Assembly: GCA_026398235.1 (NCBI GenBank)
Contig: JAPLTE010000039.1
Span: 1-51,183 of the forward strand
Source: Verrucomicrobiota bacterium
GTDB lineage: Bacteria > Verrucomicrobiota > Verrucomicrobiia > Chthoniobacterales > Chthoniobacteraceae
Length of the DNA stretch: 51,183 nucleotides
Reading direction: 5' to 3'
Both the position numbers and the translations under genes were made by a program. The notes under the pieces were generated by a model. The model was not told where the DNA came from. It worked only from the letters and a program-made list of their open reading frames with translations, and did no database searches. Each line of letters begins with the position of its first letter. Within the stretch, counting starts at the first letter, position 1. Positions 4,683 to 51,096 of the stretch are shown piece after piece.

Positions 4683-4844
4683 GGGGGAGTTTGCAGGAGC
4701 TTGCGGGAGCCTTCCCTGCGCTCGGGATGAGAAGGATTTTGGGAAGGTCTAAACATCTTTAGTGGAGCGGTGTGCATTGCAGTCAGCCTTTTGCCGACTA
4801 GAGAATCGTTTCTTGCGGGCTTGCCGAACGGCTCGGGATTGGCA

Positions 4845-6563
4845 ATGTTTAGCGCTTCCATGCATTTGTCGCCCGATCAACCTTTAGCCGGTATTCTCGC
4901 CCCCCTCTTTGCCCTTCGCTCGGAGAACGACCTTGGAATCGGAGACACCGAGTCGCTCCGCGAATGCGCTGATTGGGCATCCGAAAATGGGTTTCGGCTC
5001 GTGCAATTGCTGCCCATCAATGAGACCGGCAATGACAACTCCCCCTATAACGCGATCTCTTCGGTGGCGATCGACCCTTGCACGCTGGCCCTTTCGCCCG
5101 AGGCGGTTGCTGATCTCACCGAGGAAGCCTACGAAGCGGTGCTCGCCGGAGTCTCGCTCAAATCGCTGCGCACGGGGCCGGTGAAATACCGGGAGGTAAA
5201 GCCGCTCAAACGCCGTTTGCTGGAGAAGGCATTTGAGGGGTTTATGGAGACCCACTGGAAAAACAAGAGCGCTCGGTGCCGGCAATTCCGGGCCTGGGTC
5301 AAGGAGCAGGCTGGCTGGATCGAAGGATATGCGCTATTTCGCGCGTTAATGGACCAAAACGGCGGCTCGGAGATGTGGGATACCTGGCCCGAGCCGCAAC
5401 AGACGCTCGAAAGCGCGCTCGCGTGGCTTACTGTCCAGAAAGCGGTCGTCCGTCGGGAACTGGAATGGAAAATGCGCTATTTCCAATATGTCCAGTGGCT
5501 CGCGTTTGCGCAATGGGGGGCGCTCAAGGCCTACTGTGACCGCAAAGGGGTGGCATTGATGGGGGACGTCCCCATTGGCGTAAGCTATTACAGTTCCGAT
5601 GTCTTTTGTTGCCCGGAGATTTTCAACTTGCGCTGGTCCGGGGGAGCGCCGCCGGAGAAAGTGTTCAAAAGCGATCCGTTTACCGAAAAGTGGGGGCAGA
5701 ACTGGGGGGTGCCGCTGTATCGCTGGGATGTGTTGCGCGCCAGCAATTTTGCCTGGTGGCGGCAGCGGGTGCAGCGGGTCCGCGAGATTTTTCACCTCTT
5801 CCGCATCGACCACGTGCTCGGCTTTTACCGCATGTATGGGTTCCCGTGGCGGCCGTCACGCAACGCGGAGTTTCTCCCGCTCTCCGAAGAGGAGGCGCGG
5901 GGGCGGACCGGGGGTGATTTGCCCCATTTTACCCCGCGCGACGATTCGACGTACGAAAACCGGGAGGCGAATCGGCGCGACGGCGAGGAATACCTGCGGG
6001 CGCTGTTGGAAGAAGTGGGCGAGCATCGTTTGATCGGGGAAGACCTCGGAGTGGTGCCCGATTATGTGCGCCCGAATCTCACCTCGCTGGGCATTGCCGG
6101 CTTCAAGATCCCGCAATGGGAACGCCAGCCCAACTGGCACCTCGTGCGCGGTCACGATTACCAGCGGCTTTCCATTGCGACCTATGCCACGCACGACCAT
6201 CTGCCGCTCGCCGCGTTTTGGGAGCAGATGTGCGCCGCCGCGCAAGCGGGCGACGGCCACCAGCGCTGGGAGTTGGAACAATTGTGCGGGTTTGCCGGGT
6301 TTGGCCTCGACAGCCCGAGACCGATGACGGACGCAATCCATGAAGCGTTGCTGGCCGGGCTCTTCCAGTGCAATTCCTGGCTGGCGATTGTCATGATCAC
6401 CGACGTTTTTGCGGATACCAAACGGTTCAATGTTCCCGGAGCCGTGGCGGACTCCAACTGGAGCGAGCGGATGACGCGCACTCCCGCCCAATGGCGCAAG
6501 GACAAGCGGCGCGCCGCCAAGATGAAGCGGATCGCCGGGCTCATTAAGGCCAGCGGGAGGTAG
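4845..6563 (+). CDS. malQ: 4-alpha-glucanotransferase (amylomaltase)
   Basis: MalQ (GH77) transfers alpha-1,4-glucan segments between maltodextrins in glycogen or maltose metabolism. With the ATG at 4845 the protein has 572 residues. The predicted catalytic residues are all present: nucleophile D322 in FRIDHVLGFYR, acid/base E399 in LIGEDLG, and D451 in ATHDHLPLA. The conserved substrate-loop region GDVPIGVSYYSSDVF is also intact. The start is uncertain, because no convincing Shine-Dalgarno site precedes it. A GTG at 4770 would add 25 poorly conserved residues, and an ATG at 4860 would remove five. It is divergent from rodA and convergent with the RraB/SseB gene. Confidence 0.93.
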   Translation: MFSASMHLSPDQPLAGILAPLFALRSENDLGIGDTESLRECADWASENGFRLVQLLPINETGNDNSPYNAISSVAIDPCTLALSPEAVADLTEEAYEAVLAGVSLKSLRTGPVKYREVKPLKRRLLEKAFEGFMETHWKNKSARCRQFRAWVKEQAGWIEGYALFRALMDQNGGSEMWDTWPEPQQTLESALAWLTVQKAVVRRELEWKMRYFQYVQWLAFAQWGALKAYCDRKGVALMGDVPIGVSYYSSDVFCCPEIFNLRWSGGAPPEKVFKSDPFTEKWGQNWGVPLYRWDVLRASNFAWWRQRVQRVREIFHLFRIDHVLGFYRMYGFPWRPSRNAEFLPLSEEEARGRTGGDLPHFTPRDDSTYENREANRRDGEEYLRALLEEVGEHRLIGEDLGVVPDYVRPNLTSLGIAGFKIPQWERQPNWHLVRGHDYQRLSIATYATHDHLPLAAFWEQMCAAAQAGDGHQRWELEQLCGFAGFGLDSPRPMTDAIHEALLAGLFQCNSWLAIVMITDVFADTKRFNVPGAVADSNWSERMTRTPAQWRKDKRRAAKMKRIAGLIKASGR

Positions 6564-6584: not shown

Positions 6585-6694
6585 GGTGGATCGTGCGCTC
6601 CGCGCGCGATTCCGGGGGGTGAGCGGCGCAAGCAAAATCAGCTCGCTGCGCTCGATCTGCTTTGGCAGATCGCCCACGGAGCGGCCGATCCACC
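6585..6694. repeat. Inverted-repeat element, copy 1 (MITE/REP-like)
   Basis: This 110-bp non-coding element has imperfect 26-base terminal inverted repeats. The left end begins GGTGGATCGTGCGCTCCG and the right end is its complement with four mismatches (22 of 26 matching). The reverse complement of 49738-49846 matches it with about ten differences by eye. It lies between the 3' ends of malQ and the RraB/SseB gene, which converge. No exact target-site duplication is visible. The transcript from either side would fold into a long hairpin. Confidence 0.85.
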
Positions 6695-6765
6695 ACGCAA
6701 GACGTTAGGGATTTCGGACGGCGGATCGACGCAACGACCTTTGTTTTCGTTGCGCGCGACTTTTG

Positions 6766-7623
6766 CTATTCGCCGGATCCCGCTTCGATCTCGTCGATCA
6801 TCTTCTTGAGGAGAGCGACCATTTCGCGGTTGAGCGGAAGGGCGACATCACCGGGATTCACCACGGCACCGGCGCATTCCGGCTGGGAGAGGATGAATTC
6901 CCAGGCTTCCGGAGCGGTAAGCACCATGGCCGAGACCTTCTCTTTGGTCCACCCCTTGAGGGCGGCTTCGTCGGTGAAGAGTGGCAAAAATTCTTTTTCG
7001 TTTTCGTCCATGCAAACGAGGACTTGCATGGAACCTTCCTCGGCCTGTGCTGCAGAGGCGGATTCTGCGAAAACAGGCACAAGATAAAGGCCGCGCTGCA
7101 ATTCCAGCGTGAGATCCTGCTGGGCTTCTTCGGAGGCGTCTTCGGCGATTTTTTGGATTGCCGCCACGATCTCGGGGTTTTCGATGGGCTCGTTTTCGCT
7201 GTGGCAATGCTCGGAGCCACAGCCGCACTGGTGTTCTTCTTCCTCTTCGCAATCGCAATTTTCGCAGTCGCCTTCGCAATCGCACTCCTCATCGGCGGGA
7301 TTCACGTCCATCCCATCGTAATCGACCCCTTCAAATTTCGCGGCGAGCGCTTCGAGTTCGGCGTTGAGGGCAAAGAGGGATTCCGGCGTGTGTTTTTCGA
7401 GCCGTTCAGCTTGGAGGATGAAGATCGGTTCGTCATCGCTTTTGAAAATTTCGGAGATGTCGAAATTGCGCTCGCTGAGGGTCTCGGCGAGGGATTCCAG
7501 CACTTCGGGAGCGGGTGCTACAAAATAATAACCCCAGAGCATTTCGCCGTCGAGATTCCAGTCGGTTTCGTTGCGAAGCCCGGCGAACATTTCCTGAAGT
7601 TGTTGGAGAGTGATGGTTTCCAT
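6766..7623 (-). CDS. RraB-like / Cys-rich linker / SseB-like fusion protein
   Basis: The ATG at 7623 gives 285 residues in three parts. Residues about 18-108 resemble the ribonuclease E inhibitor RraB family, including GYYFVAPA and the terminal VDYDGMDVN (usual form DYDGWDVG). Residues 111-142 form an acidic linker with eight cysteines (114, 116, 120, 123, 125, 133, 135, 140) and three histidines (131, 139, 141). Residues about 175-275 resemble the SseB N-terminal domain, with LYLVPVF, a LPLFTDEAALKGW stretch and AVVNPGDVALPL. No enzyme active site is evident. A regulatory or metal-sensing role is an inference. Longer frames upstream of 7623 look non-coding. Confidence 0.72.
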   Translation of the reverse strand: METITLQQLQEMFAGLRNETDWNLDGEMLWGYYFVAPAPEVLESLAETLSERNFDISEIFKSDDEPIFILQAERLEKHTPESLFALNAELEALAAKFEGVDYDGMDVNPADEECDCEGDCENCDCEEEEEHQCGCGSEHCHSENEPIENPEIVAAIQKIAEDASEEAQQDLTLELQRGLYLVPVFAESASAAQAEEGSMQVLVCMDENEKEFLPLFTDEAALKGWTKEKVSAMVLTAPEAWEFILSQPECAGAVVNPGDVALPLNREMVALLKKMIDEIEAGSGE

Positions 7624-7690
7624 GGGGCGGGAAACTCGCAGCATGGAGCGCAAATGGCAATCTGGAAAACCGGGGGAGGGGATTTTATCC

Positions 7691-7717
7691 GCAGATTGCG
7701 CAGATTTTCGCAGATTT
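7691..7717. repeat. Three short direct repeats of GCAGATT
   Basis: GCAGATT occurs three times in 27 bases (starting at 7691, 7699 and 7710) with GC-rich or T-rich spacers, in the gap between the broken hrpA gene and the start of the RraB/SseB gene. It lies upstream of the latter, so it could be an operator or a fragment of a dispersed repeat. No function can be assigned. Confidence 0.5.
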
Positions 7718-7741
7718 AAGGCATGCTTCCCCTGGGAGATT

Positions 7742-9740
7742 TCAGGTGCTACCCAACGTCTGCAACCGCTGTGCCGAGACGGGCTGCGCGGTGCCGAGTT
7801 CCTGGGCAAAGAGGCTTACGCGAAATTCTTCAAGCAGCCAGCGGTAAGCTTCCCTGTTTGCTGGAGGAACGGTTTTTTCAAATGCGCCGCCAGGCAGGAA
7901 GGGGGCGAGCGGTTTGGCTTTTTCAGTGTCTTTGGTGAGGTAAAGCGGGCTGATGGAGGCCCGTTCGGCACGCAATTGCATGGCGCGCAGATAGCGCGGG
8001 AGATGGTGCAATTGCGCGTGCGGCGTGCGGGCGAGGAAATCGGCGGGGACGAGCCGTTCCAGGTCGGCTTCCCAACCGGGATAGCGTTTGCCTGAGGCGA
8101 GGAGGGCTTTGCGCAGCGTGAGAATTTGCGCGGCGAGTTCGCTGACGCGCCGGGCGAGCATGGGCAGTTCGCGTCGCGCGGTTTCGACCAGGGCGGTGAA
8201 ACGGGCTTGCGTGAGCGGGTAAAGCGGTTCGAGGCGGAAGGCGTGGGTGACAATGTGGCGATAGGCGCTTTGTTGCAGGAGTTCGCTGCTGTCCACGGCA
8301 GCGCCTTTGGGCTTCGGCGCGTGGAGCTGCGCGCCAAGTTGGGCAAGGGCGTCTCCAAAGGAGGCTTTGCCCGGCTGCGAACCGGCAGCGAGTGGCCGGG
8401 CGAGAGTGCGCAACTCTTTTTGCAGCCAGGCGAGATCGCGCGCGAGGGAGAGTTCCGCGAGACGGCAGATTCCGGCGGGCGTCGCGGCTTCCGCATCCGC
8501 GCGTCTGCGGAAAAGCAGCAAATCCACTTCGCCGTCCCGGACGGCCAGCCCGGGCCATGCGAGCAGCGGCGCGCCGCCGACCTGTTCGATAATGAGCGAT
8601 TCCGGCAAATCCCCAAACGACCACGTGGTGAGGGCCGGTTTTTCCCAACGGCGCGCGGCGATTTCCCAAGCGTCCGATTGCACGCGCTGCGCGTCCATCG
8701 AGGCCCGCACGCTTTCGAGTTCCCGCCCGGCGGCGACGGTTTTGTTTTGGCGATCCACGACTTCCACGCGGGGTCGCAGATAATCGGGCAGCGCCTTCCA
8801 ATCTTCGGGTTGAATCGCGACACGATATTTTTGCTGAATCAATCGCCCTAAAGCCGCGAGCAAACTGTCGCCCTGCGGCTCAAACGCGGCGACGATCTCG
8901 CCGATTTTGGGCTCCAGCGGCATGAGTTGTTTGCGGATGCTTTTGGGAAGTGAACGCAACAACGCGCCGATCTGTTCCTCGCGCAATCCGGGGACCATCC
9001 ATTGCAATTCGGCGGGAGTGAGCCGCTCGGCCAACGGCAGAGGGACGCGCACGGTCACGCCATCCTCCTCCTCGCCGGGATTGTAGGCGTAGGTGAGGGG
9101 AAGCACGCTGGTGCCGAGGGCGACTTGATCCGGGAACGCTTCGCGGTCGTATGCCAGATTTTCGGCATCCATCAAATCGGCCTCCGTAGCGCACAGGAAC
9201 TGCGGTTCGGCGGTGATGCGGCTGCGCACAAGCCGGTTTAAATCGTGAATGGAAGAGACGCCGCTGATGCGCTCGGCATAGAAACGGAAAAGCGCCTGGT
9301 CGATGTCATGCACGCGGTAACTGCGGACTTTGGTGAGCGCGTTTTCGATCCGCTCGCGCAGACTCTGGTTTTCGGCAAAGAAGCGTTGCTGGATGCGCGC
9401 TTCCCCGGCCACGAGCGCTCCCCGGATGAATAATTCGGTGGCGGCCACGGGGTCGATTCGGCCGTAATCAACCTGGCGTTTGCAAAGCTCCAGCCCATGC
9501 AGGAGCACGCGTTCCGTGACGAGCACGCGCCCGGCCTTGGCGCTCCATTGCGGGTGGACGTAGCTGAATTTGCAAAGATGGGAGCCGAGTTCCACGACCC
9601 ACTGCGGATCGACCCGCGCGACGGTGCGGGCGAACAGTTGCGAAGTCTGCACGATTTCCCCGGCGACGATCCATTCCGGCTGGCGGGTTGCGGACGGCTT
9701 GGCTTTCTTCTGGTTGCGCTCGTACCAGAGCCGGGGAAAA
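7742..9740 (-). CDS. HrpA fragment 3: C-terminal HrpA-specific region
   Basis: Homology resumes at [20 protein letters not shown] and continues to the stop at 7742 (ending RLQTLGST). It covers the C-terminal region shared by long HrpA proteins (DUF3418-like), for example [13 protein letters not shown] and YPLTYAYNPGEEEDGVTV-type segments. The open frame extends upstream to 9937, but the extra residues are not HrpA-like. The start given here marks the homology boundary, not a start codon. Confidence 0.68.
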
Positions 9741-16267: not shown

Positions 16268-16295
16268 TGGGGGCGCAAACCGGGACGCAATGTCC

Positions 16296-16440
16296 CAAGC
16301 GCGTCGGTGCGGGAATGCCGTGAAAATCGGCCACAGTGTCGCTGCTGTAACCGGATACGAAACCTCAAGGCCACTCGAAAAATCGGGGAAGGCGAGGCGG
16401 TAGGATCGAAGCCGGGAGTCAGAAGACCGAACGACGTGCT
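16296..16440 (+). ncRNA. Cobalamin (adenosylcobalamin) riboswitch
   Basis: The leader shows the conserved elements of the cobalamin aptamer in order: GGTGCGGGAATGCCGTGAAA, then a GCCACAGTGTC segment, GCTGCTGTAA, GGCCACTC, GGGGAAGGCG, and the B12-box region GCCGGGAGTCAGAAGACC. It directly precedes the cobalamin gene cluster and should lower its expression when coenzyme B12 is abundant. A GGGAC/GTCCC hairpin lies just 5' of the aptamer (about 16282-16295). No clear intrinsic terminator follows, so control of translation is more likely than attenuation. The boundaries are approximate. Confidence 0.9.
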
Positions 16441-16473
16441 TTGAGTAACCTTCGAAACAAAGGAAAATCCCAC

Positions 16474-16575: not shown

Positions 16576-17121
16576 GTGAGTAAAATGATCCTCGTGACCG
16601 GCGGCAGCCGGAGCGGTAAAAGTGCCTTCGCACAGAAAATGGCAGAGGCGCTGCCAGGCCCGCGTGCCTTTTTGGCGACCTGCCCGGCAATCGACCCGGA
16701 GATGGGCGAGCGCATTCGTCGCCACCAGGAGGCCCGCAATTTATGCGATTGGCAAACCATTGAGGAGCCGCTTGATCTCGCCGCCGCGCTGTGCCGGGCC
16801 AAGGATCAGCCGGTGGTCCTCGTCGATTGCCTCACGCTCTGGGTCAACAACGTCCTCTATGAAGCGGAGCAGCAGGGAAATACCGTTTCCGAAGCGGAGG
16901 TCGCGGGTTGCTGCGGGCCGATTCTTCAAGCCGCCCGCAGCCATGGCGGCACCATTCTATTTGTCACCAATGAAGTCGGAATGGGCCTCGTGCCAGAAAC
17001 TCCGCTGGGCCGCCGGTTCCGCGATCTCGCAGGTCGCGTGAACCAAACGATTGCGGCTGCATGCGACGAGCTGTTCCTCGTGGTGTGCGGACAACCTCTC
17101 CAAATCAAACCCCAAAAATAA
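16576..17121 (+). CDS. cobU: Adenosylcobinamide kinase / guanylyltransferase
   Basis: CobU phosphorylates adenosylcobinamide and transfers GMP to it during nucleotide-loop assembly. The 181-residue protein has a P-loop at residues 9-16 (GGSRSGKS), H50 in RRHQEAR as the likely guanylylated histidine, and the VDCLTLWVNN and FVTNEVGMGLVPE signatures. The GTG start at 16576 is supported by GAGG seven bases upstream. The ATG at 16585 is spaced too far. It is the first clear gene behind the riboswitch and is followed eight bases later by cobT. Confidence 0.95.
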   Translation: MSKMILVTGGSRSGKSAFAQKMAEALPGPRAFLATCPAIDPEMGERIRRHQEARNLCDWQTIEEPLDLAAALCRAKDQPVVLVDCLTLWVNNVLYEAEQQGNTVSEAEVAGCCGPILQAARSHGGTILFVTNEVGMGLVPETPLGRRFRDLAGRVNQTIAAACDELFLVVCGQPLQIKPQK

Positions 17122-17129
17122 CAATCTCC

Positions 17130-18191
17130 ATGACTCTTCTCGAAAAAACAGTGCAGCAGATCGAACCTCAATGCGCTGTTTCCCGTGCTGCCGCCCATAC
17201 CCGTTTGGAACAACTCACGATGCCCTATTGGGCACTGGGGCTTTTGATGGATTTGGCTGAAGACCTCGCCGGAATGACCCGTTCAATGCGTCCTCCGGTG
17301 GCTCGCAAGGCAGTCGTCGTCATGGCAGGGGATCACGGCGTTGCGGCTTCCGGTGTCAGTCAGTATCCCCAAGAGGTCACCGTGCAGATGATCCATAATT
17401 TCGTAAACGGCGGCGCGGGGTGCAACGCGCTGGCGCGCCAGGTCGGAGCGCAGGTGGTCGTGGTCGATGCCGGAGTCGCGGGCGATTTGACGGCTCTGGT
17501 GGATAGCGGAAAAATCATTTCCAAGCGCGTTGCAGCCGGAACAGCCAATATGCATACCGGCCCGGCAATGAGCCGCGAGCAGGCGATCCGCTCCGTGGAA
17601 GCGGGCATTGAGGTCGCGCTGTCGCTGGCCGATTCCATCGACGTGTTTGCCACGGGCGAAATGGGTATTGCGAACACCACGCCCAGCAGTGCCATCGTTG
17701 CCGCGTTAACCTGCACGGTGGTTGAGGAGATCACCGGGCGCGGTACAGGGATTGATGATGCGCGGCTGCAAAACAAGATCGCCGTGATTAAAGAGGCATT
17801 GCGCGTAAACAACCCCGACCCTGCTGATGCACTGGATGTGCTGGCGAAGGTCGGCGGATTTGAAATCGGGGCCATTGCGGGCCTGATCCTCGGCGCTGCG
17901 GCGCTGAAGAAGCCCGTGATTGTGGACGGCTTCATCACAACAGCAGGAGCGTTGATTGCGCAAGGCATCTGCCCGTTGTCGACGCAATACATGATCGCAG
18001 CGCACCGGAGCGTGGAACCGGGCCACCGGGTGGCGCAGGAGCGCCTCGGAAAAAAACCGTTGCTTGATCTGAGCCTGCGCCTCGGCGAAGGCACCGGCGC
18101 GGTGCTCGCCATGAATTTGGTGGAAGCTTCCGTGCGCATTCTGACTGATGTGGCTACTTTCGCGGAGGCATCTGTCTCGACGGCTCACTAA
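17130..18191 (+). CDS. cobT: Nicotinate-nucleotide:dimethylbenzimidazole phosphoribosyltransferase
   Basis: CobT makes alpha-ribazole phosphate from nicotinate mononucleotide and the lower-ligand base. With the ATG at 17130 the protein has 353 residues. It shows VVVMAGDHGV, EMGIANTTPSSA and the C-terminal LGEGTGA with catalytic E320. An upstream GTG or ATG would extend into the end of cobU. No dimethylbenzimidazole synthesis gene (bluB, bza) is in the window, so the base must be made elsewhere or taken up. Confidence 0.96.
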   Translation: MTLLEKTVQQIEPQCAVSRAAAHTRLEQLTMPYWALGLLMDLAEDLAGMTRSMRPPVARKAVVVMAGDHGVAASGVSQYPQEVTVQMIHNFVNGGAGCNALARQVGAQVVVVDAGVAGDLTALVDSGKIISKRVAAGTANMHTGPAMSREQAIRSVEAGIEVALSLADSIDVFATGEMGIANTTPSSAIVAALTCTVVEEITGRGTGIDDARLQNKIAVIKEALRVNNPDPADALDVLAKVGGFEIGAIAGLILGAAALKKPVIVDGFITTAGALIAQGICPLSTQYMIAAHRSVEPGHRVAQERLGKKPLLDLSLRLGEGTGAVLAMNLVEASVRILTDVATFAEASVSTAH

Positions 18192-18942: not shown

Positions 18943-21504
18943 ATGATGTCCCAAACCCACGGCGGAAATCTCAGAGAACTGGCGCTCTCGTCGGGAATAC
19001 CGGAGAGCGAACTGCTCGATTTTTCCGCGAACTTGAATCCGCTCGGGCCCCCCGAATGGCTGCGCCCCGTCATCGCAGCAAATGTCAGTGCGCTGGCCCA
19101 TTACCCGGACCCGGATTGCACCGCGCTTGTGGAAGCTGCGGCCCGGCGCTATGGCGTGGCAATGGAGGAGGTGATCGCAGGGAATGGCTCCGCCGAAATC
19201 CTTTCGTTGCTGCCCCGGGTTTTGGGCAAGCCGCGCGCGTTGGTTCCCGTGCCCGCCTATGTGGATTACGCCCGCTCGGCGGCGCTGGGCGGGATGAAGG
19301 TGAAATCGCTCCCGTTCAAGGAGGAGAACGGGTTTCAACTGGATTTCCCCGCGCTCGAAATGGCGCTGCGCGGCGATGAGGCGGTTTTTATCGGGCGGCC
19401 CAACAACCCAACGGGTCATGTCTGTGATGCGGGGGCGCTGCGGGCACTCGCGTTGCGGAATCCCGCGACTTTGTTCGTTGTGGACGAAGCGTTTGGCGAT
19501 TTTGTGGACGGTTTTGAGAGCCTCACGCGCGAGCGTCCAGCGAATATCATCGTGCTGCTTTCGTTGACCAAGGCGTTTGCGATTCCAGGCTTGCGTTTGG
19601 GGTGCGCAGTGGCGAATGCGGAGCTCGCCGCCCGAATGCGCGCATTGCTCCCGCCATGGTCGGTCAATACGCTGGCCCAAGCCGTGGGGGTGGCCGCTTT
19701 GCAGGATACGGAGTACTTGTGCCGCACGCGGGCGTTTGTGCGGGAACAACGGGAAACGCTTGCGGCGGAATTGGGCTCGTTGCCAGGGCTGCATGTCTAT
19801 CCCGCAGAAGCGGATTTCCTGCTGGTGCGCACTGCGACGGATGCGTCCGCATTGGCCAGGCGCATGTTGCGGGAAGGGATCGCGATCCGCCTCTGCACAA
19901 ATTTCGAAGGACTTGGCACCCGCTTTTTTCGCGTAGCGGTACGCACAGCACAAGAGAATGCGCGGCTTTGCAAGGCGCTGCGGAGCGCGCTGGGTTTCCC
20001 CGCAATTGCCGCCCCCAAGTGCCGCGCCGCGAGCATCATGTTCCAGGGGACCAGCTCCAATGCCGGGAAAAGCGTCCTCACTGCCGCGCTCTGCCGCATT
20101 CTGCAACAGGACGGGCTCAGTGTCGCTCCTTTCAAGTCACAGAACATGTCGCTCAATTCATGTGTGACGCGGGACGGCCTGGAGATGGGGCGCGCACAAG
20201 TCATGCAGGCACAGGCGTGCCGGATCGAACCTGAGGCTCGGATGAACCCGATCCTGCTCAAGCCCAATTCGGACACCGGCTCGCAAGTCATCCTGCTCGG
20301 GAAACCTGTGGGCAACATGAATGTGGGCGAATACATCCGGTTCAAGCCGCAGGCGTTTGAGGCAGCCAAGCAGGCGTTCGATTCGCTTGCCGCCGAGCAT
20401 GACGTGGTGGTTTTGGAAGGGGCAGGCAGCCCGGCGGAGGTCAATTTAAAACACCACGATATCGTCAACATGCCCATGGCCCGCCATGCCAACGCGCCCG
20501 TTCTGCTCGTGGGGGACATTGATCGCGGCGGGGTATACGCCTCGTTTGTCGGGTCGATGGAAGTGCTCAATGAATGGGAACGCGCTCTGGTCGCGGGCTT
20601 TGTGGTGAACCGGTTCCGCGGGCAGGAGGCGCTTTTGCAGGACGCGCACGACTACGTCCATCGCCACACCCGGTTGCCTGTGCTCGGTGTCATCCCCTAT
20701 TTGCCGAACCTCGGTTTGCCAGAGGAAGATTCCGTCACCTTCAAAGCTGCAAGGTCGCAGAGCGCGAGCGGTGGAGCAGAGCAGGTGGACATTGCGCTTC
20801 TGGATTTGCCCCATTTATCGAATTTCACCGACTTCGATGCCCTGCGGATCGAGCCGGATGTCGTGGTGCGCATTGTGCGTTCACGGGAGGAATTGGGAAG
20901 CCCGGATGCGGTGATTCTGCCGGGAAGCAAGCACGTGGCGGCCGACCTCGCCCACCTGCGCCAAAGCGGCCTGGCGGCTGCCGTGATCGAACTCGCGCGC
21001 CGGGGGAAGACGGAAATTGTGGGTATTTGCGGTGGTTATCAAATGCTCGGCCAGCGGATCGAAGACCCGCAGCGGATCGAATCCGAAGGAACGCCGGTGG
21101 AAGGATTGGGTTTGCTCCCGCTTTCCACCGTGATGGAGCCTGAGAAGACGCTCAAGCGCGTTATGGGCCGCCATGCGGAATCTGGATTTGCGCTCCACGG
21201 TTATGAAATCCACCACGGCCAGAGCGCTTGCGATGCATCGTTGACCCCGCTCGTTTTGCGCGAGGACGGCGAGGTGATCGGCGTCGGCTGCGGCCTTGCC
21301 TGGGGGAGTTATCTCCATGGCATTTTCGATGCCGACCCGTTCCGTCGCTGGTTTATTGACCGATTGCGCATCCGGAGAGGGCTCGCGCCGGTGGGGCGCG
21401 TGGTGGCTGTATATGATTTGCAGGAAGCCTTCGACCGGCTTGCCGCCGTGGTGCGCGCAAGCCTGGACATGAAACAAATCTACCGTCTGCTGAAATTGGG
21501 ATGA
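18943..21504 (+). CDS. cobQ: Threonine-phosphate decarboxylase (CobD) fused to cobyric acid synthase (CobQ/CbiP)
   Basis: This 853-residue protein joins two cobalamin enzymes. Residues 1 to about 355 are a PLP-dependent aminotransferase-fold protein like Salmonella CobD, with [25 protein letters not shown] and PLP lysine K210 in [14 protein letters not shown]. It should make aminopropanol phosphate from threonine phosphate. Residues from about 364 are CobQ/CbiP, with the ATP-binding [17 protein letters not shown] and the glutamine amidotransferase motif [10 protein letters not shown]. It amidates the corrin ring. The linker is only about ten residues. It overlaps cbiB by four bases. Histidinol-phosphate aminotransferase is excluded by the context. 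Confidence 0.94.
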
Positions 21505-22451: not shown

Positions 22452-22969
22452 AACCGCGCACATTGATTTTTACAGGCGAGGGAAAGGGGAAGACGACCGC
22501 AGCCTTTGGCATGGTGTTGCGAGCGGCGGGGCACGGGCAGCGCGTAATGGTCGTGCAGTTCCTCAAATCCAACAGCGACAGTGGCGAGTTGCTGGGATGC
22601 GCTCATCTGCCCAATGTGGAACTGGTCCAGATCGGGCGCGGTTTTGTTCCGTCCCAGGCGCACCCCGCCTTCGCCAACCACCGGGAAACGGCAGGCGAGG
22701 CATTGGCGTTTTCGCGGGAGTGCCTCGCATCCAATCGATACGATCTAATCGTTCTCGATGAGATTTGCGGTGCCGTTGCCCTGGAATTGATTGAGTTGGA
22801 AGAGGTGATCGCGCTGATCACTGCTCCAGGGCGGACGGCGTGCCTCGTTTTGACAGGGCGTCACGCCAGCGAGCGTTTGATGGCGCAGGCCGACACCGTG
22901 ACCGAGATGCGCTGTATCCGGCATGGATACAGCGAAGGCATTGCCGCGCAGAAAGGAGTGGAGTTTTGA
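22448..22969 (+). CDS. cobO: Corrinoid adenosyltransferase (CobA/CobO type)
   Basis: This enzyme transfers the adenosyl group of ATP to cob(I)yrinate or cobalamin. The ATG at 22448 overlaps the cbiB stop by four bases and gives 173 residues. A TTG at 22430 would add six. Its P-loop is TGEGKGKTTAAFG near residues 9-21, and the later LIVLDEICGA and LVLTGRHASE segments are family hallmarks. It does not resemble the PduO or EutT types. Confidence 0.95.
   Translation: MKPRTLIFTGEGKGKTTAAFGMVLRAAGHGQRVMVVQFLKSNSDSGELLGCAHLPNVELVQIGRGFVPSQAHPAFANHRETAGEALAFSRECLASNRYDLIVLDEICGAVALELIELEEVIALITAPGRTACLVLTGRHASERLMAQADTVTEMRCIRHGYSEGIAAQKGVEF
22952..22958 (+). promoter_or_regulatory. Shine-Dalgarno site that fixes the cbiA TTG start
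   Basis: AAAGGAG lies seven bases upstream of the TTG at 22966, inside the end of cobO. No ATG or GTG in the cbiA frame is near the conserved N-terminus, so this site supports initiation at TTG. Confidence 0.75.
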
Positions 22970-24342
22970 ATATTCCACGGCTTGTGATCGCGGGAACCCA
23001 GAGCGGAGTGGGCAAGACTTCGGTCACGCTCGGGCTCGTTGCCGCGCTCAAGCGGCGGGGATTGCGCGTGCAGACATTTAAAGTGGGGCCGGATTATCTC
23101 GACCCGACTTATCTGGCACTTGCTTCGGGTCGGCCCTGCTACAATCTCGACGGCTGGATGACCGATAAAGAGTATGTTTGCGAACTGTTTGCGCGTGTTT
23201 CCGCAGATGCCGATCTGGCGATCATCGAAGGAGTAATGGGGCTCTTTGACGGGGCCGATCCCGCAGCGTTGTCGGGGAGCACGGCGGAGATCGCCTGCTG
23301 GCTGGAGGCCCCGGTTCTCCTCATTGCAAACGCCCACGGCGCAGGCCGCAGCTTTGCCGCAACGGTGCATGGTTTCGCGACCTTCATTCCGGAGATTCGC
23401 CTCGCGGGGGTCATCGCCAACCGCTGCGGTTCCGAGCGGCACGCGGAGGGACTTGCCGCTTCGCTCTCAAGCGCGGCGCTGCCTGCCTTTCTGGGGGCGG
23501 TCCAGCGCGGGGCGCTGCCGGAATTGCCAAGCCGCCACCTCGGCCTTGTGAGCGCCGATGCAAAACAGTTTTCGCAGGCGATTCTGGACCAGCTTGCCGA
23601 TGCAGTGGAAGTCGCGCTGGATGGCATTCTGGACCAGGCCCGCAAAGCCCTTCCCATTCAAGCGAAACCCACGCGAGGCATGTCCCCCAATATTTCCCCA
23701 GCCACGGTGCGATTGGGCATTGCGCAGGATGAGGCATTCCATTTTTACTATGCAGACAACCTGGATGCGCTAAGAAAGGCGGGGTGCGAACTGGTCCCGT
23801 TTTCTCCAGTGCGCGACGGCGCGCTGCCCCCGGATCTCCATGGCATTTATATCGGCGGCGGTTATCCCGAGGAGCATGCAGAGGCGCTTGCCGCCAATAC
23901 AGGGATGCTGGATGCGATTCGAGAGTTCGTTGCGACGGGGCACATCGTTTATGCCGAGTGCGGCGGGTTGATGTATCTCTCGCAGGGCATCGAGACACTC
24001 GACAACGCGCGCCATCGCATGCTGGGTTTGCTTCCCGCGTGGACGCGCATGTGTCCGCGCCGCCAATCCCTCGGGTACATGGAGGCCGAATTCACGCGCG
24101 ACTGTTTCTGGGGCGAGAAGGGCGAGCGTTTGCGCGGGCACGAGTTTCATTATTCCGAGTTGACCCATGTTCCCGAAGAGTGTCCCAAGGCCTACGCTTT
24201 GCACTACCGCCGTTCGGATCGCCCCCTGGCGGAAGGGTTTCAATGCGGTTCCGTCTTGGCCAGCTATGCCCATCTTCATTTCGCGGCGAAACCCGGTGCC
24301 GTGGTTCATTTTGTGAATTGTTTGAAAACCTGCATCCCATGA
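22966..24342 (+). CDS. cbiA: Cobyrinate a,c-diamide synthase
   Basis: CbiA amidates cobyrinate at the a and c side chains using glutamine and ATP. The TTG at 22966 overlaps the cobO stop (TTGA) and gives 458 residues. The N-terminal part has AGTQSGVGKTSVTLGL and KVGPDYLDPTY, and the C-terminal glutaminase part has YAECGGLMYLSQ with the nucleophilic cysteine, then RGHEFHYSE. A longer frame from 22840 would extend into cobO. It is linked to cbiC by a four-base overlap. Confidence 0.95.
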   Translation: MNIPRLVIAGTQSGVGKTSVTLGLVAALKRRGLRVQTFKVGPDYLDPTYLALASGRPCYNLDGWMTDKEYVCELFARVSADADLAIIEGVMGLFDGADPAALSGSTAEIACWLEAPVLLIANAHGAGRSFAATVHGFATFIPEIRLAGVIANRCGSERHAEGLAASLSSAALPAFLGAVQRGALPELPSRHLGLVSADAKQFSQAILDQLADAVEVALDGILDQARKALPIQAKPTRGMSPNISPATVRLGIAQDEAFHFYYADNLDALRKAGCELVPFSPVRDGALPPDLHGIYIGGGYPEEHAEALAANTGMLDAIREFVATGHIVYAECGGLMYLSQGIETLDNARHRMLGLLPAWTRMCPRRQSLGYMEAEFTRDCFWGEKGERLRGHEFHYSELTHVPEECPKAYALHYRRSDRPLAEGFQCGSVLASYAHLHFAAKPGAVVHFVNCLKTCIP

Positions 24343-25028
24343 CAAAACCTCCGTTCATTTATCAACTGCTTAACCGCCGCATGAGCGGACCCGAGATTGA
24401 AACCCGCTCGTTTGAGATCATCGATGGCGAAGCGCCCGACCGACTCGGGTTTTCGCGGGATGAATGGGAAATCGTGCGCCGATTGATCCACACCACGGGC
24501 GACATGGCGCTTGCTGCATCCGTGCGCTTCTCGCCGGATGCCATTGAGTCCGGCATCGCGGCGTTGCGCCGGGGCGCGCCGATTTATGCCGACTCAAACA
24601 TGATCCGCAGCGGCCTTTCGCTGGAGCGGCTGCGCAGTGCTCATGCCGGTTATGCAGTAGACCGGATTGCCTGTTACGTTGCCGACAATGAGGTGGCGCA
24701 AAAAGCCACAAAGGAAGGTCTGCCGCGCTCGCTGTATGCCATCCAAAAGGCGAAGCCGCAGCTCGATGGGGGGATTGTGATTTTTGGCAACGCCCCTGTG
24801 GCGTTACTGGAACTCAACCGGATGATCCTCGAGGAGGGGATTCGTCCCGCGCTGGTGATCGGCATGCCGGTCGGTTTCGTGCATGTGGTCGAGAGCAAGG
24901 AGGAACTGGCCGCGCTCGGGGTTCCGTTCATCGGCATCGAAGGGCGTCGCGGCGGCAGCACCCTGGCGGTTGCAACACTCCACGCGGTTTGCACGCTTGC
25001 CCGACAGGCCGAGAAAGGAGTTTCTTAA
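24339..25028 (+). CDS. cbiC: Precorrin-8X / cobalt-precorrin-8 methylmutase
   Basis: CbiC moves a methyl group from C11 to C12, producing (cobalt-)hydrogenobyrinate or cobyrinate. From the ATG at 24339 the protein has 229 residues. H51 in IHTTGDMALA matches the catalytic histidine of the family, and FGNAPVALLEL, IGMPVGFVHVVESKEEL and IGIEGRRGGST are typical. It overlaps cbiA by four bases and the cbiM start by one base (TAATG). Confidence 0.96.
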   Translation: MTKPPFIYQLLNRRMSGPEIETRSFEIIDGEAPDRLGFSRDEWEIVRRLIHTTGDMALAASVRFSPDAIESGIAALRRGAPIYADSNMIRSGLSLERLRSAHAGYAVDRIACYVADNEVAQKATKEGLPRSLYAIQKAKPQLDGGIVIFGNAPVALLELNRMILEEGIRPALVIGMPVGFVHVVESKEELAALGVPFIGIEGRRGGSTLAVATLHAVCTLARQAEKGVS

Positions 25029-26860: not shown

Positions 26861-27732
26861 ATCCGTTCGCTCTTGAAACCGAGGCGATTTCTTTCGCTTA
26901 CCCAGACGGGTTTGTGGCGTTGCGAGAAATCGTCTTCCGGGTCAAACGTGGCGAATTTGTGGCGATGCTCGCTTCCAACGGTTCGGGTAAAACCACGTTG
27001 ATCAAAGTGCTCGCCGGTCTGCTAGTGCCTCAAAGCGGTTCCGTAAAGGTCGATGGGCGGGCCATCGGCGAGTATTCGCAAGCGGGGCTGTACCAACGTT
27101 TGGGCCTGGTATTTCAAAATCCCAATGACCAGCTTTTTGGCGCGACCGTAGCCGAGGACGTGGCGTTCGGGCCGCGCAATCTCGGGTTGCCGGAAGCGGA
27201 AGTGCAATGCCGTGTGGCCGAGGCGCTCTCGGCGGTGGGAGCCGGGGAGTTGCAGGACCGGGCGATCCATCACTTGAGTTTCGGCCAGCAGAAACGGGTG
27301 GCCATCGCCGGGGTGCTGGCCATGAAACCGGCGATCTTGATCCTTGATGAACCGACCGCCGGGCTCGATCCCGCTGGGGAACACAGCATGTTGCGCCTGC
27401 TCAGCTCGTTGAATCGGGAGCAGGGGATCACGATTGTTCTGGCAACGCATTCGGTGGATACGCTGCCGCTGTTTGCCGACCGGATTTACCTGCTCAACCG
27501 GGGTCGGGTGCTTAAGGAGGGGCCTTCGGAGGAGGTATTTCGGGATCACGAGTTGATCGAGAGCGCGAGCTTGCGGTTGCCCTATGTGTCGCGTCTTTTG
27601 CATGAATTAAAACGGTTTCACGGCGTGCCCATCGAAGGGCTGCCCCTGACGCTTGGCGAGGCGCGCGAGCAACTTTTAAAGCTGATTCCCGATGAAGTCA
27701 TCCTGCCGGTGATCGAGGAGGGGCGGCTATGA
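26857..27732 (+). CDS. cbiO: Cobalt ECF transporter ATPase
   Basis: CbiO hydrolyses ATP to drive cobalt uptake. The 291-residue ABC protein has a Walker A of ASNGSGKTT, Q-loop VFQNPNDQLF, signature LSFGQQKRVAIAG, Walker B ILILDEPTAGLD and the switch histidine in ATHSVD. The first residue of Walker A is alanine in place of the usual glycine, which may be tolerated. The unusual LSFGQ signature is typical of CbiO. About 60 residues follow the core as a C-terminal extension. It overlaps cbiD by four bases. Confidence 0.95.
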   Translation: MNPFALETEAISFAYPDGFVALREIVFRVKRGEFVAMLASNGSGKTTLIKVLAGLLVPQSGSVKVDGRAIGEYSQAGLYQRLGLVFQNPNDQLFGATVAEDVAFGPRNLGLPEAEVQCRVAEALSAVGAGELQDRAIHHLSFGQQKRVAIAGVLAMKPAILILDEPTAGLDPAGEHSMLRLLSSLNREQGITIVLATHSVDTLPLFADRIYLLNRGRVLKEGPSEEVFRDHELIESASLRLPYVSRLLHELKRFHGVPIEGLPLTLGEAREQLLKLIPDEVILPVIEEGRL

Positions 27733-46020: not shown

Positions 46021-46109
46021 AAGGGCCAGTTGCTGATGATCAATTCTCGGTCCATGCAAGAAAATAATTTCTCAACCCGCTCCTGCGGTTCGAAAGGGGG
46101 GAATCTCTA

Positions 46110-46313
46110 ATGGCGTCTAAAGTACCTGCAAAGAAAGCCGCTGCCAAAAAACCGGCAGCGAAGAAAGCTCCGGCTAAGAAAGCGGTAGCTAAAAAAGCTC
46201 CGGCTAAGAAAGTTGTAGCTAAGAAAGTGGTAGCGAAGAAAGCCGCGGCCAAACCGGCTGCGAAGAAAGTGGTAGCGAAGAAAGCTCCTGCTAAGAAAGC
46301 TGCAAAGAAATAA
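46110..46313 (+). CDS. Histone H1-like Lys/Ala/Pro-rich nucleoid protein
   Basis: The 67-residue protein is made of repeats of the type AKKA, AKKAPAKK and AKKVVAKK, with no acidic residue and about one third lysine. This resembles the C-terminal tail of histone H1 and chlamydial Hc proteins and should bind DNA or RNA non-specifically. The DNA is itself repetitive (units such as GCTAAGAAAGC). A strong ribosome site and an immediate terminator point to an independent, well-expressed gene. The function is inferred from composition. Confidence 0.85.
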   Translation: MASKVPAKKAAAKKPAAKKAPAKKAVAKKAPAKKVVAKKVVAKKAAAKPAAKKVVAKKAPAKKAAKK

Positions 46314-46330
46314 TTCTTTGTGACAAATGT

Positions 46331-46373
46331 GAAATGGGAGGAGGACGCAAGCCTTCCTCCCATTTCGTTTTTT
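46331..46373 (+). terminator. Rho-independent terminator of the histone-like gene
   Basis: GAAATGGGAGGA pairs with TCCTCCCATTTC to form a 12-bp stem around a short loop, followed by GTTTTTT. It lies 18 bases after the histone-like stop codon. The opposite strand ends the convergent gene at 46390 without a comparable poly-T run. Confidence 0.85.
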
Positions 46374-46389
46374 GGAGCCAAAGGCCTTT

Positions 46390-47064
46390 TTATGCAAGCG
46401 GGTCGCCAGCCTGCACCGTGGGAATGAGATGTAGAGGTTTGAGTGTTTCGGGATCTTTGTGGTACCGCTTGATGCCACTTTCGGCGAGGGCTGTCGCCGG
46501 GATATTGGAGACGAATTCCGCAAAACTGCGTTCGACCCCTTCGCGTTGGAGTACTTGTCCTTTTTTGGTGGCCCAGAATTCCTCCTGGATATTGGCAAGC
46601 GCGCGCACGGCTTCGTCGGGTCCGAGATTCTCGCGCCGCGCGAGCAGCCATACGAGTTCGGGATCTTCGGGCAGCGATACGGGGAAGGGGATGTAGGGGG
46701 CTTCGGCTTCCTCCTCCTCGGTGCCGGGGGCGACCACTTTGACCAGCGTGTTTACGATGTGGTCGGGCAGGGCAATTTCCACGGCCACGGCAGTCCCGTC
46801 TTCCTGCGGAGTGACGACGACATTCTCCGGGCCGAAATTCCCCGCGAGCTGACTTTGGAATTCGGCGACGGTGGCCGGTTCGGCATCGGGCAGCGATCCT
46901 TTCTCGCAGAATTTTTCAAACGAATCGAGGCTGTTGAAGAGGCGCACCTCCTTAAGGACTTGCTCGTAGATCGCGTTGGCCAGGTGGGGATCTTGAATGG
47001 TTTGAGGCAGGACACGTTGGAGGACAGCGAGAAAACGGGCTTCGTCTAATTTTTTGGATTTCAT
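46390..47064 (-). CDS. Hypothetical protein
   Basis: The 224-residue product from the ATG at 47064 is acidic and apparently cytoplasmic, with no signal peptide. It begins KSKKLDEARFLAVLQRVLPQ and contains a Glu-rich stretch APGTEEEEAEAPY near residue 117. Around residue 130 lies SLPEDPELVWLLARRENLG. I do not recognise a domain. It is convergent with the histone-like gene and divergent from the HAD gene. A longer frame to 47316 would overlap the HAD gene and is rejected. Confidence 0.75.
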   Translation of the reverse strand: MKSKKLDEARFLAVLQRVLPQTIQDPHLANAIYEQVLKEVRLFNSLDSFEKFCEKGSLPDAEPATVAEFQSQLAGNFGPENVVVTPQEDGTAVAVEIALPDHIVNTLVKVVAPGTEEEEAEAPYIPFPVSLPEDPELVWLLARRENLGPDEAVRALANIQEEFWATKKGQVLQREGVERSFAEFVSNIPATALAESGIKRYHKDPETLKPLHLIPTVQAGDPLA

Positions 47065-48848: not shown

Positions 48849-49715
48849 ATGTCCACCCTCGTCATCCTGGGCAGCGGCGGTCGTCTCGGCGCAGCGCTTG
48901 CGCGCGGTTACGCCGCCGAAACCCGCGTCATCGGCTTGAACCACAGCCAACTCGACCTGGCATCGCCCGAGGCGATTCGGTGCGCTTTGGGCGGACTCGA
49001 TTTCGACGCCCTCATCAACGCCGCCGCCCTCACGAACGTGGATTACTGCGAGACGCACGAAGAGGAGGCGTTTGCGGTGAACGCCCGAGCCGTCCGGGAG
49101 ATCGCAGAAATTTGCGCGCGCAAACGGGCCCGCTGTATCCATATCAGCACCGACTACGTTTTCGACGGCATGAAACGCGAACCGTATACCGAGAGCGATG
49201 CGGCGCGTCCGCTCAGCGTTTATGGAGCCTCCAAGCGGCAGGGCGAAATCGAGTTGCTCGACGCCTGCGCCGACCACCTTGCCGCGCGGGTTTCCTGGGT
49301 GTTCGGTCCCGATCGGCCCAGCTTCGTGGATCAAATCCTCAAGCGCGCTCTGGAAACCGATGAACTCCAGGCCATCGGCGATAAATGGTCCACCCCAACT
49401 TATACCCTGGACCTTGTCGACTGGTTGCGCCCGCTGTTGTGGGAAAAACCGGTGGGGGGCGTGCTGCATCTCACCCCATCGGGCGCATGCACCTGGCAGG
49501 AGTATGGGCAATACGCGCTCGATTGCGCGGCACAAGCCGGGCGTCCCCTCAAAGGCCGCACTGTGGCATTCCAGGCTTTGCGTGATCTGAAAGCGTTCGT
49601 AGCCGAGCGTCCGATTTATACCGTGCTCGATACGCAACGACTGACCACCGTCACCGGCATCGTCCCGCGCCCCTGGCAGGAAGCGGTCGCGGAATACGTG
49701 AGGACTATGCAATAA
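48849..49715 (+). CDS. rfbD: dTDP-4-dehydrorhamnose reductase
   Basis: RfbD makes dTDP-L-rhamnose, a common O-antigen sugar. The 288-residue protein has ILGSGGRLGAAL (NADPH site), NAAALTNVDYCE, HISTDYVFDG and SVYGASKRQGE with the Tyr/Lys pair. It starts at the ATG at 48849 and is convergent with the helicase at 49888. The epimerase RfbC and the thymidylyltransferase RfbA must be encoded elsewhere. Confidence 0.94.
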   Translation: MSTLVILGSGGRLGAALARGYAAETRVIGLNHSQLDLASPEAIRCALGGLDFDALINAAALTNVDYCETHEEEAFAVNARAVREIAEICARKRARCIHISTDYVFDGMKREPYTESDAARPLSVYGASKRQGEIELLDACADHLAARVSWVFGPDRPSFVDQILKRALETDELQAIGDKWSTPTYTLDLVDWLRPLLWEKPVGGVLHLTPSGACTWQEYGQYALDCAAQAGRPLKGRTVAFQALRDLKAFVAERPIYTVLDTQRLTTVTGIVPRPWQEAVAEYVRTMQ

Positions 49716-49737: not shown

Positions 49738-49846
49738 GGTGGATCGGCCGCTCCGCGGGCGATTTTCCAATGCAGATCGAGCGGAGCGAGCCGATTTTGC
49801 TTGCGACGCCCACTCCCGGAATCGCGCGCGGAGCGCACGATCCACC
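49738..49846. repeat. Inverted-repeat element, copy 2 (MITE/REP-like)
   Basis: This 109-bp copy is the reverse complement of the element at 6585-6694 with about ten differences. Its terminal repeats match in 23 of 26 positions, beginning GGTGGATCGGCCGCTCCG. It lies between the convergent ends of rfbD and the helicase gene. No target-site duplication is evident. Confidence 0.85.
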
Positions 49847-49887: not shown

Positions 49888-51096
49888 CTATCGTCTGCGG
49901 CTCGCGGGCGTTTTACGGCGGATCGGCTTGGGCGCTGCGCCGGGCACTTCCGAGGCGAAGAGGGCGCAATAAAGGTAATTGAACCCTTCCAGCTTCTGGC
50001 GGGCGATTTTCGTGCCGATGAAGTACTCGATTTTGACCACGTGTTCGAGATCCTCGCCGGTGAAAATAGTGAACGCATCCCCTACGGCCTGGGCGCGTCC
50101 GGTGCGTCCGATGCGGTGCACGTAATCCTCCGGGTGCTGCGGGACGTCGAAGTTGATGACGTGCGAAACGCCCGCCACGTCGATGCCGCGCGCGGCGATG
50201 TCGGTGGCCACCATTACTTCGTATTTGCCGGACTTGAACCCTTCCAGCGCGTCCATCCGTTCGTTCTGGGTGCGGTTGGAATGCAACGCAACCACGGAAT
50301 GTTTATTGGATTTGAGCTTCGCGGCGATCTGGTCTGCGCCGACCTTGGTGCGGCAGAAGATCAGCACGCTGGAGTAGTCGGTTTTGTCCAACAAAGCCAG
50401 CAGCAGATCGAATTTCTGATCGCGGGAAACGGGATACAGCGCATGGGTGATCGTCTCCGCTGGCGAATGGGTGCGGCCGATTTCAATAATGGCTGGATCG
50501 CGCACCACCCATTGCGTCAGCCCCTGGAGTTCGGGCGGGATGGTTGCGGAAAAGAACAGCGTCTGGCGGTTCTTGTTGCATTGCTCCACGATCCGGCGCA
50601 CTTGCGGCAGAAAACCCATGTCGAGCATCCGGTCCACCTCGTCGAGCACGAGAATTTCCACCCCGGAGAGATCCACGCTGCCTTGTTCGAGATGGTCCAA
50701 AAGCCGGCCCGGGGTGGCGACCAGCGAATCGACCCCCGCTTTGAGATCTTCGCGCTGTTTGCCGTAGCCGACGCCTCCATACATGAGGCCCACGGTCAAA
50801 TCCGAGAATCGGCTGAAATCGCGGAACGCCGTTTCCACCTGGGCGGCGAGTTCGCGGGTCGGCTCCAGAACCAGGCAACGCGGTTTGCCTCCCGGCTTGT
50901 GCTTGGCGAGTTTGGTGAGAATGGGGAGACCGAAGGCCGCTGTTTTGCCGGTGCCGGTTTGTGCGGATGCGATCAAATCGCGACCGGAAAGAACCACTGG
51001 AAAAGCGCGCAACTGGATAGGTGACGGATCGACGTATCCCATCGACTGCACCCCATGAATAATATCCTCGGAAAGCCCGAAGTCCAAAAATGACAT
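49888..51096 (-). CDS. DEAD-box family RNA helicase with DEVD motif (RhlE-like)
   Basis: The 402-residue protein unwinds RNA. The Q motif is PSPIQLRAFP, Walker A is AQTGTGKT, motif Ia EPTRELAAQV, motif II VLDEVD, motif III SATIP, and motif VI HRIGRTGR. The fourth residue pair is DEVD, not the usual DEAD. A short basic tail (KPIRRKTPASRRR) suits RNA binding. The nearest relatives are RhlE-type helicases. The region upstream (51097-51183) contains no gene. Confidence 0.92.
   Translation of the reverse strand: MSFLDFGLSEDIIHGVQSMGYVDPSPIQLRAFPVVLSGRDLIASAQTGTGKTAAFGLPILTKLAKHKPGGKPRCLVLEPTRELAAQVETAFRDFSRFSDLTVGLMYGGVGYGKQREDLKAGVDSLVATPGRLLDHLEQGSVDLSGVEILVLDEVDRMLDMGFLPQVRRIVEQCNKNRQTLFFSATIPPELQGLTQWVVRDPAIIEIGRTHSPAETITHALYPVSRDQKFDLLLALLDKTDYSSVLIFCRTKVGADQIAAKLKSNKHSVVALHSNRTQNERMDALEGFKSGKYEVMVATDIAARGIDVAGVSHVINFDVPQHPEDYVHRIGRTGRAQAVGDAFTIFTGEDLEHVVKIEYFIGTKIARQKLEGFNYLYCALFASEVPGAAPKPIRRKTPASRRR

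Follow-up and report, generated by a model that had tools for sequence, protein, structure and literature searches.

The window (the whole 51,183-nucleotide stretch of Chthoniobacteraceae DNA that we analysed) contains two copies of a 110-bp unit that consists of two REPs in inverted orientation and is thus a REPIN. Very likely, this REPIN is a non-autonomous passenger that forms one long hairpin, with REP ends that an HUH tyrosine transposase of the RAYT type, encoded on contig C62, recognises in single-stranded form. Below, G000 denotes the source genome, G002 and G004 are congeners, C with a number is a contig and L with a number is a sequence stretch. The window features are:

6585..6694, + strand: REPIN copy 1, inverted pair of REPs whose GTGG heads face outward, ~110 bp
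6585..6610, + strand: type T REP of copy 1, GGTGGATCGTGCGCTCCGCGCGCGAT, GGTGG head with a 9-bp stem and 3-nt loop (hairpin -14.8 kcal/mol)
6611..6668, no strand: spacer of copy 1 with the conserved AGCTCGCTGCGCTCGATCTGCTTTGG inside (25 GTGG-outward pairs of G000 and G002 compared)
6669..6694, - strand: type A REP of copy 1, GGTGGATCGGCCGCTCCGTGGGCGAT, inverted partner of the type T REP
6695..6720, + strand: degraded right outer arm of copy 1, ACGCAAGACGTTAGGGATTTCGGACG, to be compared with CACGCAAGACGCTGGTGATTCGGAAATTC in better-preserved copies (by eye)
49738..49846, - strand: REPIN copy 2, in the opposite orientation to copy 1
4770..6563, + strand: 4-alpha-glucanotransferase (PF02446), left gene of the convergent pair around copy 1
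6766..7809, - strand: RraB/SseB-domain protein, right gene of the convergent pair around copy 1
48849..49715, + strand: rmlD, dTDP-4-dehydrorhamnose reductase, left gene of the convergent pair around copy 2
49888..51096, - strand: DEAD-box RNA helicase, right gene of the convergent pair around copy 2

The preliminary description had reported two copies in opposite orientation, about 90% identical, with 26-base imperfect terminal repeats and each between converging genes. Our comparison within the window agreed: 100 of 110 positions are identical (91%, one gap, E = 2e-39), the two 26-base ends of copy 1 agree at 84.6% when one is inverted, and the glucanotransferase and RraB/SseB genes converge on one copy as rmlD and the helicase gene do on the other. 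In folding predictions, either single strand of the 110-mer formed one hairpin, with z-scores against shuffled sequences of -4.3 for DNA and of -4.1 and -7.2 for the two strands as RNA. A weak REP-like match at window position 24420, with 4 mismatches, was treated as chance.

Elsewhere in the window, a cobalamin riboswitch (RF00174, 74 bits; 16288-16449, + strand) lies upstream of genes whose products have domains of cobalamin biosynthesis (DBI_PRT at 17061-18191, Aminotran/CbiA/GATase_3 at 18943-21504 and CbiA/GATase_3 at 22840-24342). At 46040-46313 (- strand), a 15-base tandem repeat encodes a lysine/alanine/proline-rich region within the ORF at 46040-46651; this region has a histone H1-like look and gave no Pfam match.

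Each end of the window element is a complete REP, with a G-GTGG head, a 9-bp GC-rich stem and a 3-nt loop. Stems fall into three types: T (TGCGC..GCGCG), A (ACCGC or GGCCGC..) and B (CGACC or CGCTC..). The G that precedes GTGG is present in 98-100% of REP copies, and 111 copies combine a GGTGG head with a 9-bp stem, in line with the definition of a REP as a palindrome of 20-40 nt that has a conserved GT(A/G)G head on one side. Base changes in the stems are compensated: across 16 distinct stems, 89.6% of cells were paired and 12 cells had both sides changed, giving a covariation score of 0.241 against 0.076 in shuffles (0 of 500 shuffles scored as high, and slid controls collapsed); as the stem types were picked by the analyst from the copies found, this covariation supports the structure and does not prove it alone. 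The family had been proposed to be of the REP or MITE kind. The first of these names holds, whereas the supposed terminal repeats are not plain MITE ends; as two complete REP hairpins, they tie the REPIN to an HUH tyrosine transposase and not to a DDE transposase.

The expectation that the family would be numerous was borne out. With up to 3 mismatches, the REP end pattern had 82 matches in the genome and a reversed control pattern none, and the full 110-bp query matched ~11 times over its whole length and more than 30 times at an end only, so the element is not confined to the two window copies. The stretches fetched around pattern matches hold at least 111 REPs in 64 places, a lower bound because B-type REPs had no genome-wide search of their own. 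They are arranged as 15 GTGG-outward pairs, which are REPINs with two inverted REPs and a spacer in one joint hairpin, 31 GTGG-inward pairs and 19 singles (one triplet being split into a pair and a single). Inverted doublets therefore predominate, with 46 dimers to 19 singles, and two thirds of the dimers are GTGG-inward. Outward pairs are mostly 90-112 bp long, two being widened to ~260-270 bp, and inward pairs have spacers of variable length. Pairing of stem types was obligate: all 46 dimers are heterotypic and join type A with B or T, against a maximum of 37 in 20,000 shuffles. Tails of the form TTTTGCGCC..TTTTTGCGGC adjoin many inward pairs; since they are present also without REPs, they were left out of the REP definition. 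A further inverted repeat, GCCGCAAAAAGGCGCAAAA...TTTTGCGCCTTTTTGCGGC, has 51 single arms in G000 on many contigs (for example, L169 1703-1830 and L172 1376-1458); a GTGG-inward REP pair lies between the arms in some cases and is missing in others.

REPs of this genome are nearly all extragenic. Counted by place, 28 of the 64 REP units lie in convergent junctions, 28 in tandem and 5 in divergent ones, 2 at contig edges and 1 within a called gene, which leaves 63 of 64 intergenic or at contig edges. With junctions defined by a simple codon-pair gene caller, and with a background of REP-free junctions from the window and the fetched stretches in place of the whole genome, REPs occurred in 27 of 74 convergent junctions against 33 of 327 others (odds ratio 5.1, p = 1.7e-7). 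The bias for convergent regions anticipated in the preliminary description is thus present. Divergent junctions were depleted of REPs (odds ratio 0.24, p = 0.0017, counting only junctions that retain 30 nt or more once REPs are removed). This positional bias is compatible with 3'-end RNA functions and also with simple purifying selection against insertion into promoters and genes.

RAYTs are always flanked by inverted REPs with a GT(A/G)G head (Nunvar 2010, PMC2817692). The conserved ends had been read as a transposase-recognised terminus, and a transposase with matching ends had been suggested as something to look for. Among five Y1-transposase matches in G000, one (C62:26952-27395) is a 147-aa RAYT-like protein encoded between leuS and pgsA and bordered by two inverted REPs of the same family at 26924 (- strand) and 27464 (+ strand); one of these starts right at the stop codon and the other lies upstream. 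The protein has the motifs PDHLHAL (HLH) and YHYILNNP, which supply the HUH motif and the catalytic tyrosine, and the two H and the Y are invariant in an alignment of 6 homologues. It matched PDB 4ER8 (TnpArep), the sole solved relative found, with E = 1.8e-4 over an alignment that spans the HxH and Tyr regions, and is a distant relative of E. coli TnpA_REP. Against NF047646 (REP_Tyr_transpos) it scored 77 bits (E = 1.3e-21), under the 80-bit cut-off, and it was also below the Pfam cut-off; we therefore term it RAYT-like and divergent. Verrucomicrobial homologues likewise scored 68-74 bits against NF047646. RAYTs are further described as having an NP(L/V)(R/K)xG motif and a conserved N-terminal Thr (PMC2817692). 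The C62 protein has NPVAKG, a near match with A in place of R/K, and by eye the homologue alignment held no obvious N-terminal Thr.

Homologous RAYTs in Opitutaceae and other Verrucomicrobiota MAGs (L149-L153; 47-55% identity) all have GTGG hairpins nearby. Next to the closest of them (L149, an Opitutaceae MAG, 55% identical), the hairpin GTGGGTCGTGCGCTCCGCGCGCGAC equals the T-type hairpin of the window bar one compensated base pair, and a 400-kb sample of that genome had REPs of its two types at other places (6 matches, control 0). The C62 and L149 proteins with their hairpins thus repeat, across genera, the pattern of matched RAYT and REP that Nunvar et al. described (PMC2817692). Two other transposase genes of G000 also adjoin repeats. 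A second RAYT of 176 aa (L069 4218-4748, on G000:C102) scored 110 bits, over the NCBIfam cut-off, and adjoins palindromes of the AAGCTGGAGCTTGG type, which are repeated in both G000 and G002; gene and palindromes may form another REP-RAYT pair. An IS200-like transposase with an in-frame stop (L067 9332-9616, on G000:C19) has the inverted repeats CACCGGGCT..AGCCCGGTG and GCCGTTTCAACGGC at its borders.

REPs were many in two of four congeners, G002 and G004, and none were found in the other two; outside the genus, the pattern had 0-3 matches per genome. Both window copies are absent at the orthologous G002 junctions, where gene order is kept and the flanking genes are 87-91% identical in DNA. 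One of these junctions has a lone REP unlike that of the window, together with other repeats; at the second there is a short inverted repeat, likewise different. As to whether a REPIN moves as a unit bounded by its REP heads, the window copies are absent at the G002 junctions, no precise empty site was seen, and some copies are alike beyond the heads. Elements common to orthologous junctions were found at own C121 and G002 C349 and at own C43 and G002 C166. At another orthologous junction, a REPIN on G002 C217 corresponds to a GTGG-inward pair on own C129, so differing REP arrangements recur at one spot; similarly, a GTGG-inward pair on own C8 (L070 3680-3900) faces a GTGG-outward pair on G004 C31 (L196 1730-1900), as if turned inside out. 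G002 and G004 hold these REPs by the dozen, yet, unusually, a C62-clade RAYT was detected in neither, an absence that is not certain since both are drafts. Between two G002 REPINs at C26, a search found no RAYT, and at the leuS-pgsA junction of the congeners pgsA was seen with no RAYT. The C62-clade RAYT may not be the sole or current mobiliser, or may have been lost, or missed in fragmented drafts.

Several GTGG-outward pairs are, unusually, alike beyond their heads, with a left TATAGTGTTTCTCAAAAGGAATTTCCGAAACACAGAAG and a right CACGCAAGACGCTGGTGATTCGGAAATTCTTTTTGAGAGATGCTATA that are inverted repeats of each other. The complete form measures 186 bp, has both outer inverted arms and carries TA at either end; it is found at G002:C146:7445-7630 (L179 1446-1631); G000:C33 also keeps both arms, inverted and with TA at the ends, and several other copies, window copy 1 among them, have degraded arms. 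The unit may once have been larger, with arms that decay, or REPINs may have inserted into an older repeat. A unit bounded strictly at the GTGG heads does not predict such arms, and they count against the REPIN explanation, as do the sub-cut-off profile scores of the C62 RAYT and the failure to detect its clade in G002 and G004.

These arms are what favours reading the element as a MITE of a classical DDE-type insertion sequence, ~186 bp long, with terminal arms TATAGYRTYTCTCAMAARGAATTTCCGAA and the REP hairpins in its interior. We regard this as very improbable: the arm pattern had 1 match in G000, adjoining a REPIN, and 9 in G002, against dozens of arm-less REPs; the placed arm matches that were inspected adjoin REPs; no autonomous insertion sequence with such terminal repeats was found in the genome; and the transposase that REPs do border is a RAYT, with homologues elsewhere that have matching hairpins. 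A search with the outer arm as a candidate insertion sequence end led to none. Somewhat less improbable, yet still unlikely, is a nested ~186-bp mobile unit in this genus, a REPIN within a second inverted arm pair (TATAGC..TCGGAA) that fuses RAYT-linked with arm-linked mobility.

We give a similarly low probability to a bidirectional terminator or 3'-end RNA element that was selected at convergent junctions, with mobility secondary or past. Such a role would suit the REP enrichment at those junctions, hairpins that are very stable on both strands, and the inward pair of C129 opposite the REPIN of G002 C217 at one orthologous junction. Against it, a scan around copy 1 (and copy 1 only) gave no intrinsic terminator at the element, a T-run after the stem is absent in both copies as read from the sequence, the G002 junctions lack both window copies with gene order the same, and 28 of 64 REP units lie in tandem junctions. 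A classical intrinsic terminator, which on each strand would have a T-run behind a GC stem, was rejected for copy 1. Similarity that arose by chance, or as a processed artefact of two local sequences, has only the GC-rich composition in its favour and is refuted, with next to no probability left, by the E-value of the pair, by the genome matches against an empty control and by the presence of the element in two congeners.

We therefore prefer the REPIN passenger, with REP and REPIN elements probably copied by a small transposase that adjoins the same repeats. The C62 RAYT would recognise and cleave the single-stranded GGTGG hairpin, and copying would run through a single-stranded intermediate; the GTGG head is described as directing cleavage to CC (PMC8266576), and in our REPs a CC directly follows the stem on its 3' side in type T and in many of type A. 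Insertions would survive mainly at convergent or tandem gene ends because selection would remove those in genes or promoters, and a secondary role as a 3'-end RNA stem-loop is possible.

REPINs were described in Pseudomonas fluorescens SBW25 (Bertels and Rainey 2011, PMC3116915), and the present ones share with them two inverted REPs in one hairpin, a distance of ~70-110 bp, extragenic placement and the link to a RAYT. They differ in stem sequence, in far fewer copies, in having more inward pairs than outward REPINs and in the outer arms of some copies. GTAG families form dimers in both orientations, and REP-rich genomes have a bias for convergent and unidirectional junctions (Di Nocera et al. 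2013, PMC3733652). Within the same phylum, the GTAG-20 REPs of Opitutus terrae have a head that is mostly GTGG (PMC3733652); compared in features other than stem sequence, they resemble ours in this head, as do GTAG families in their dimer orientations and REP-rich genomes in their junction bias, whereas O. terrae has many intragenic copies and here there are almost none. With the Y and Z REPs, BIMEs and TnpA_REP of E. coli (PMC2817692; PMC8266576), the system shares heterotypic, alternating REP types, a REP-bordered RAYT and the HUH and Tyr motifs, and dimers of A with B or T parallel the BIMEs that join Y to Z REPs. Unlike E. coli, the head here is GGTGG and not GTAG, the RAYT is distant and slightly under curated cut-offs, and the type A stem mismatch differs from the AA-GC bulge.

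The defining features of the REP/REPIN/RAYT class have all been described before, and the element is an ordinary member, newly found. With it, a REPIN population at the level of a genus becomes known from uncultured Verrucomicrobiota, together with a RAYT clade that is divergent, and REP stems covary with the RAYT across genera. The system offers a test case for the persistence of REPs where a RAYT was not found and a second, distant one for RAYT-hairpin recognition, with a GTGG in place of a GTAG head.
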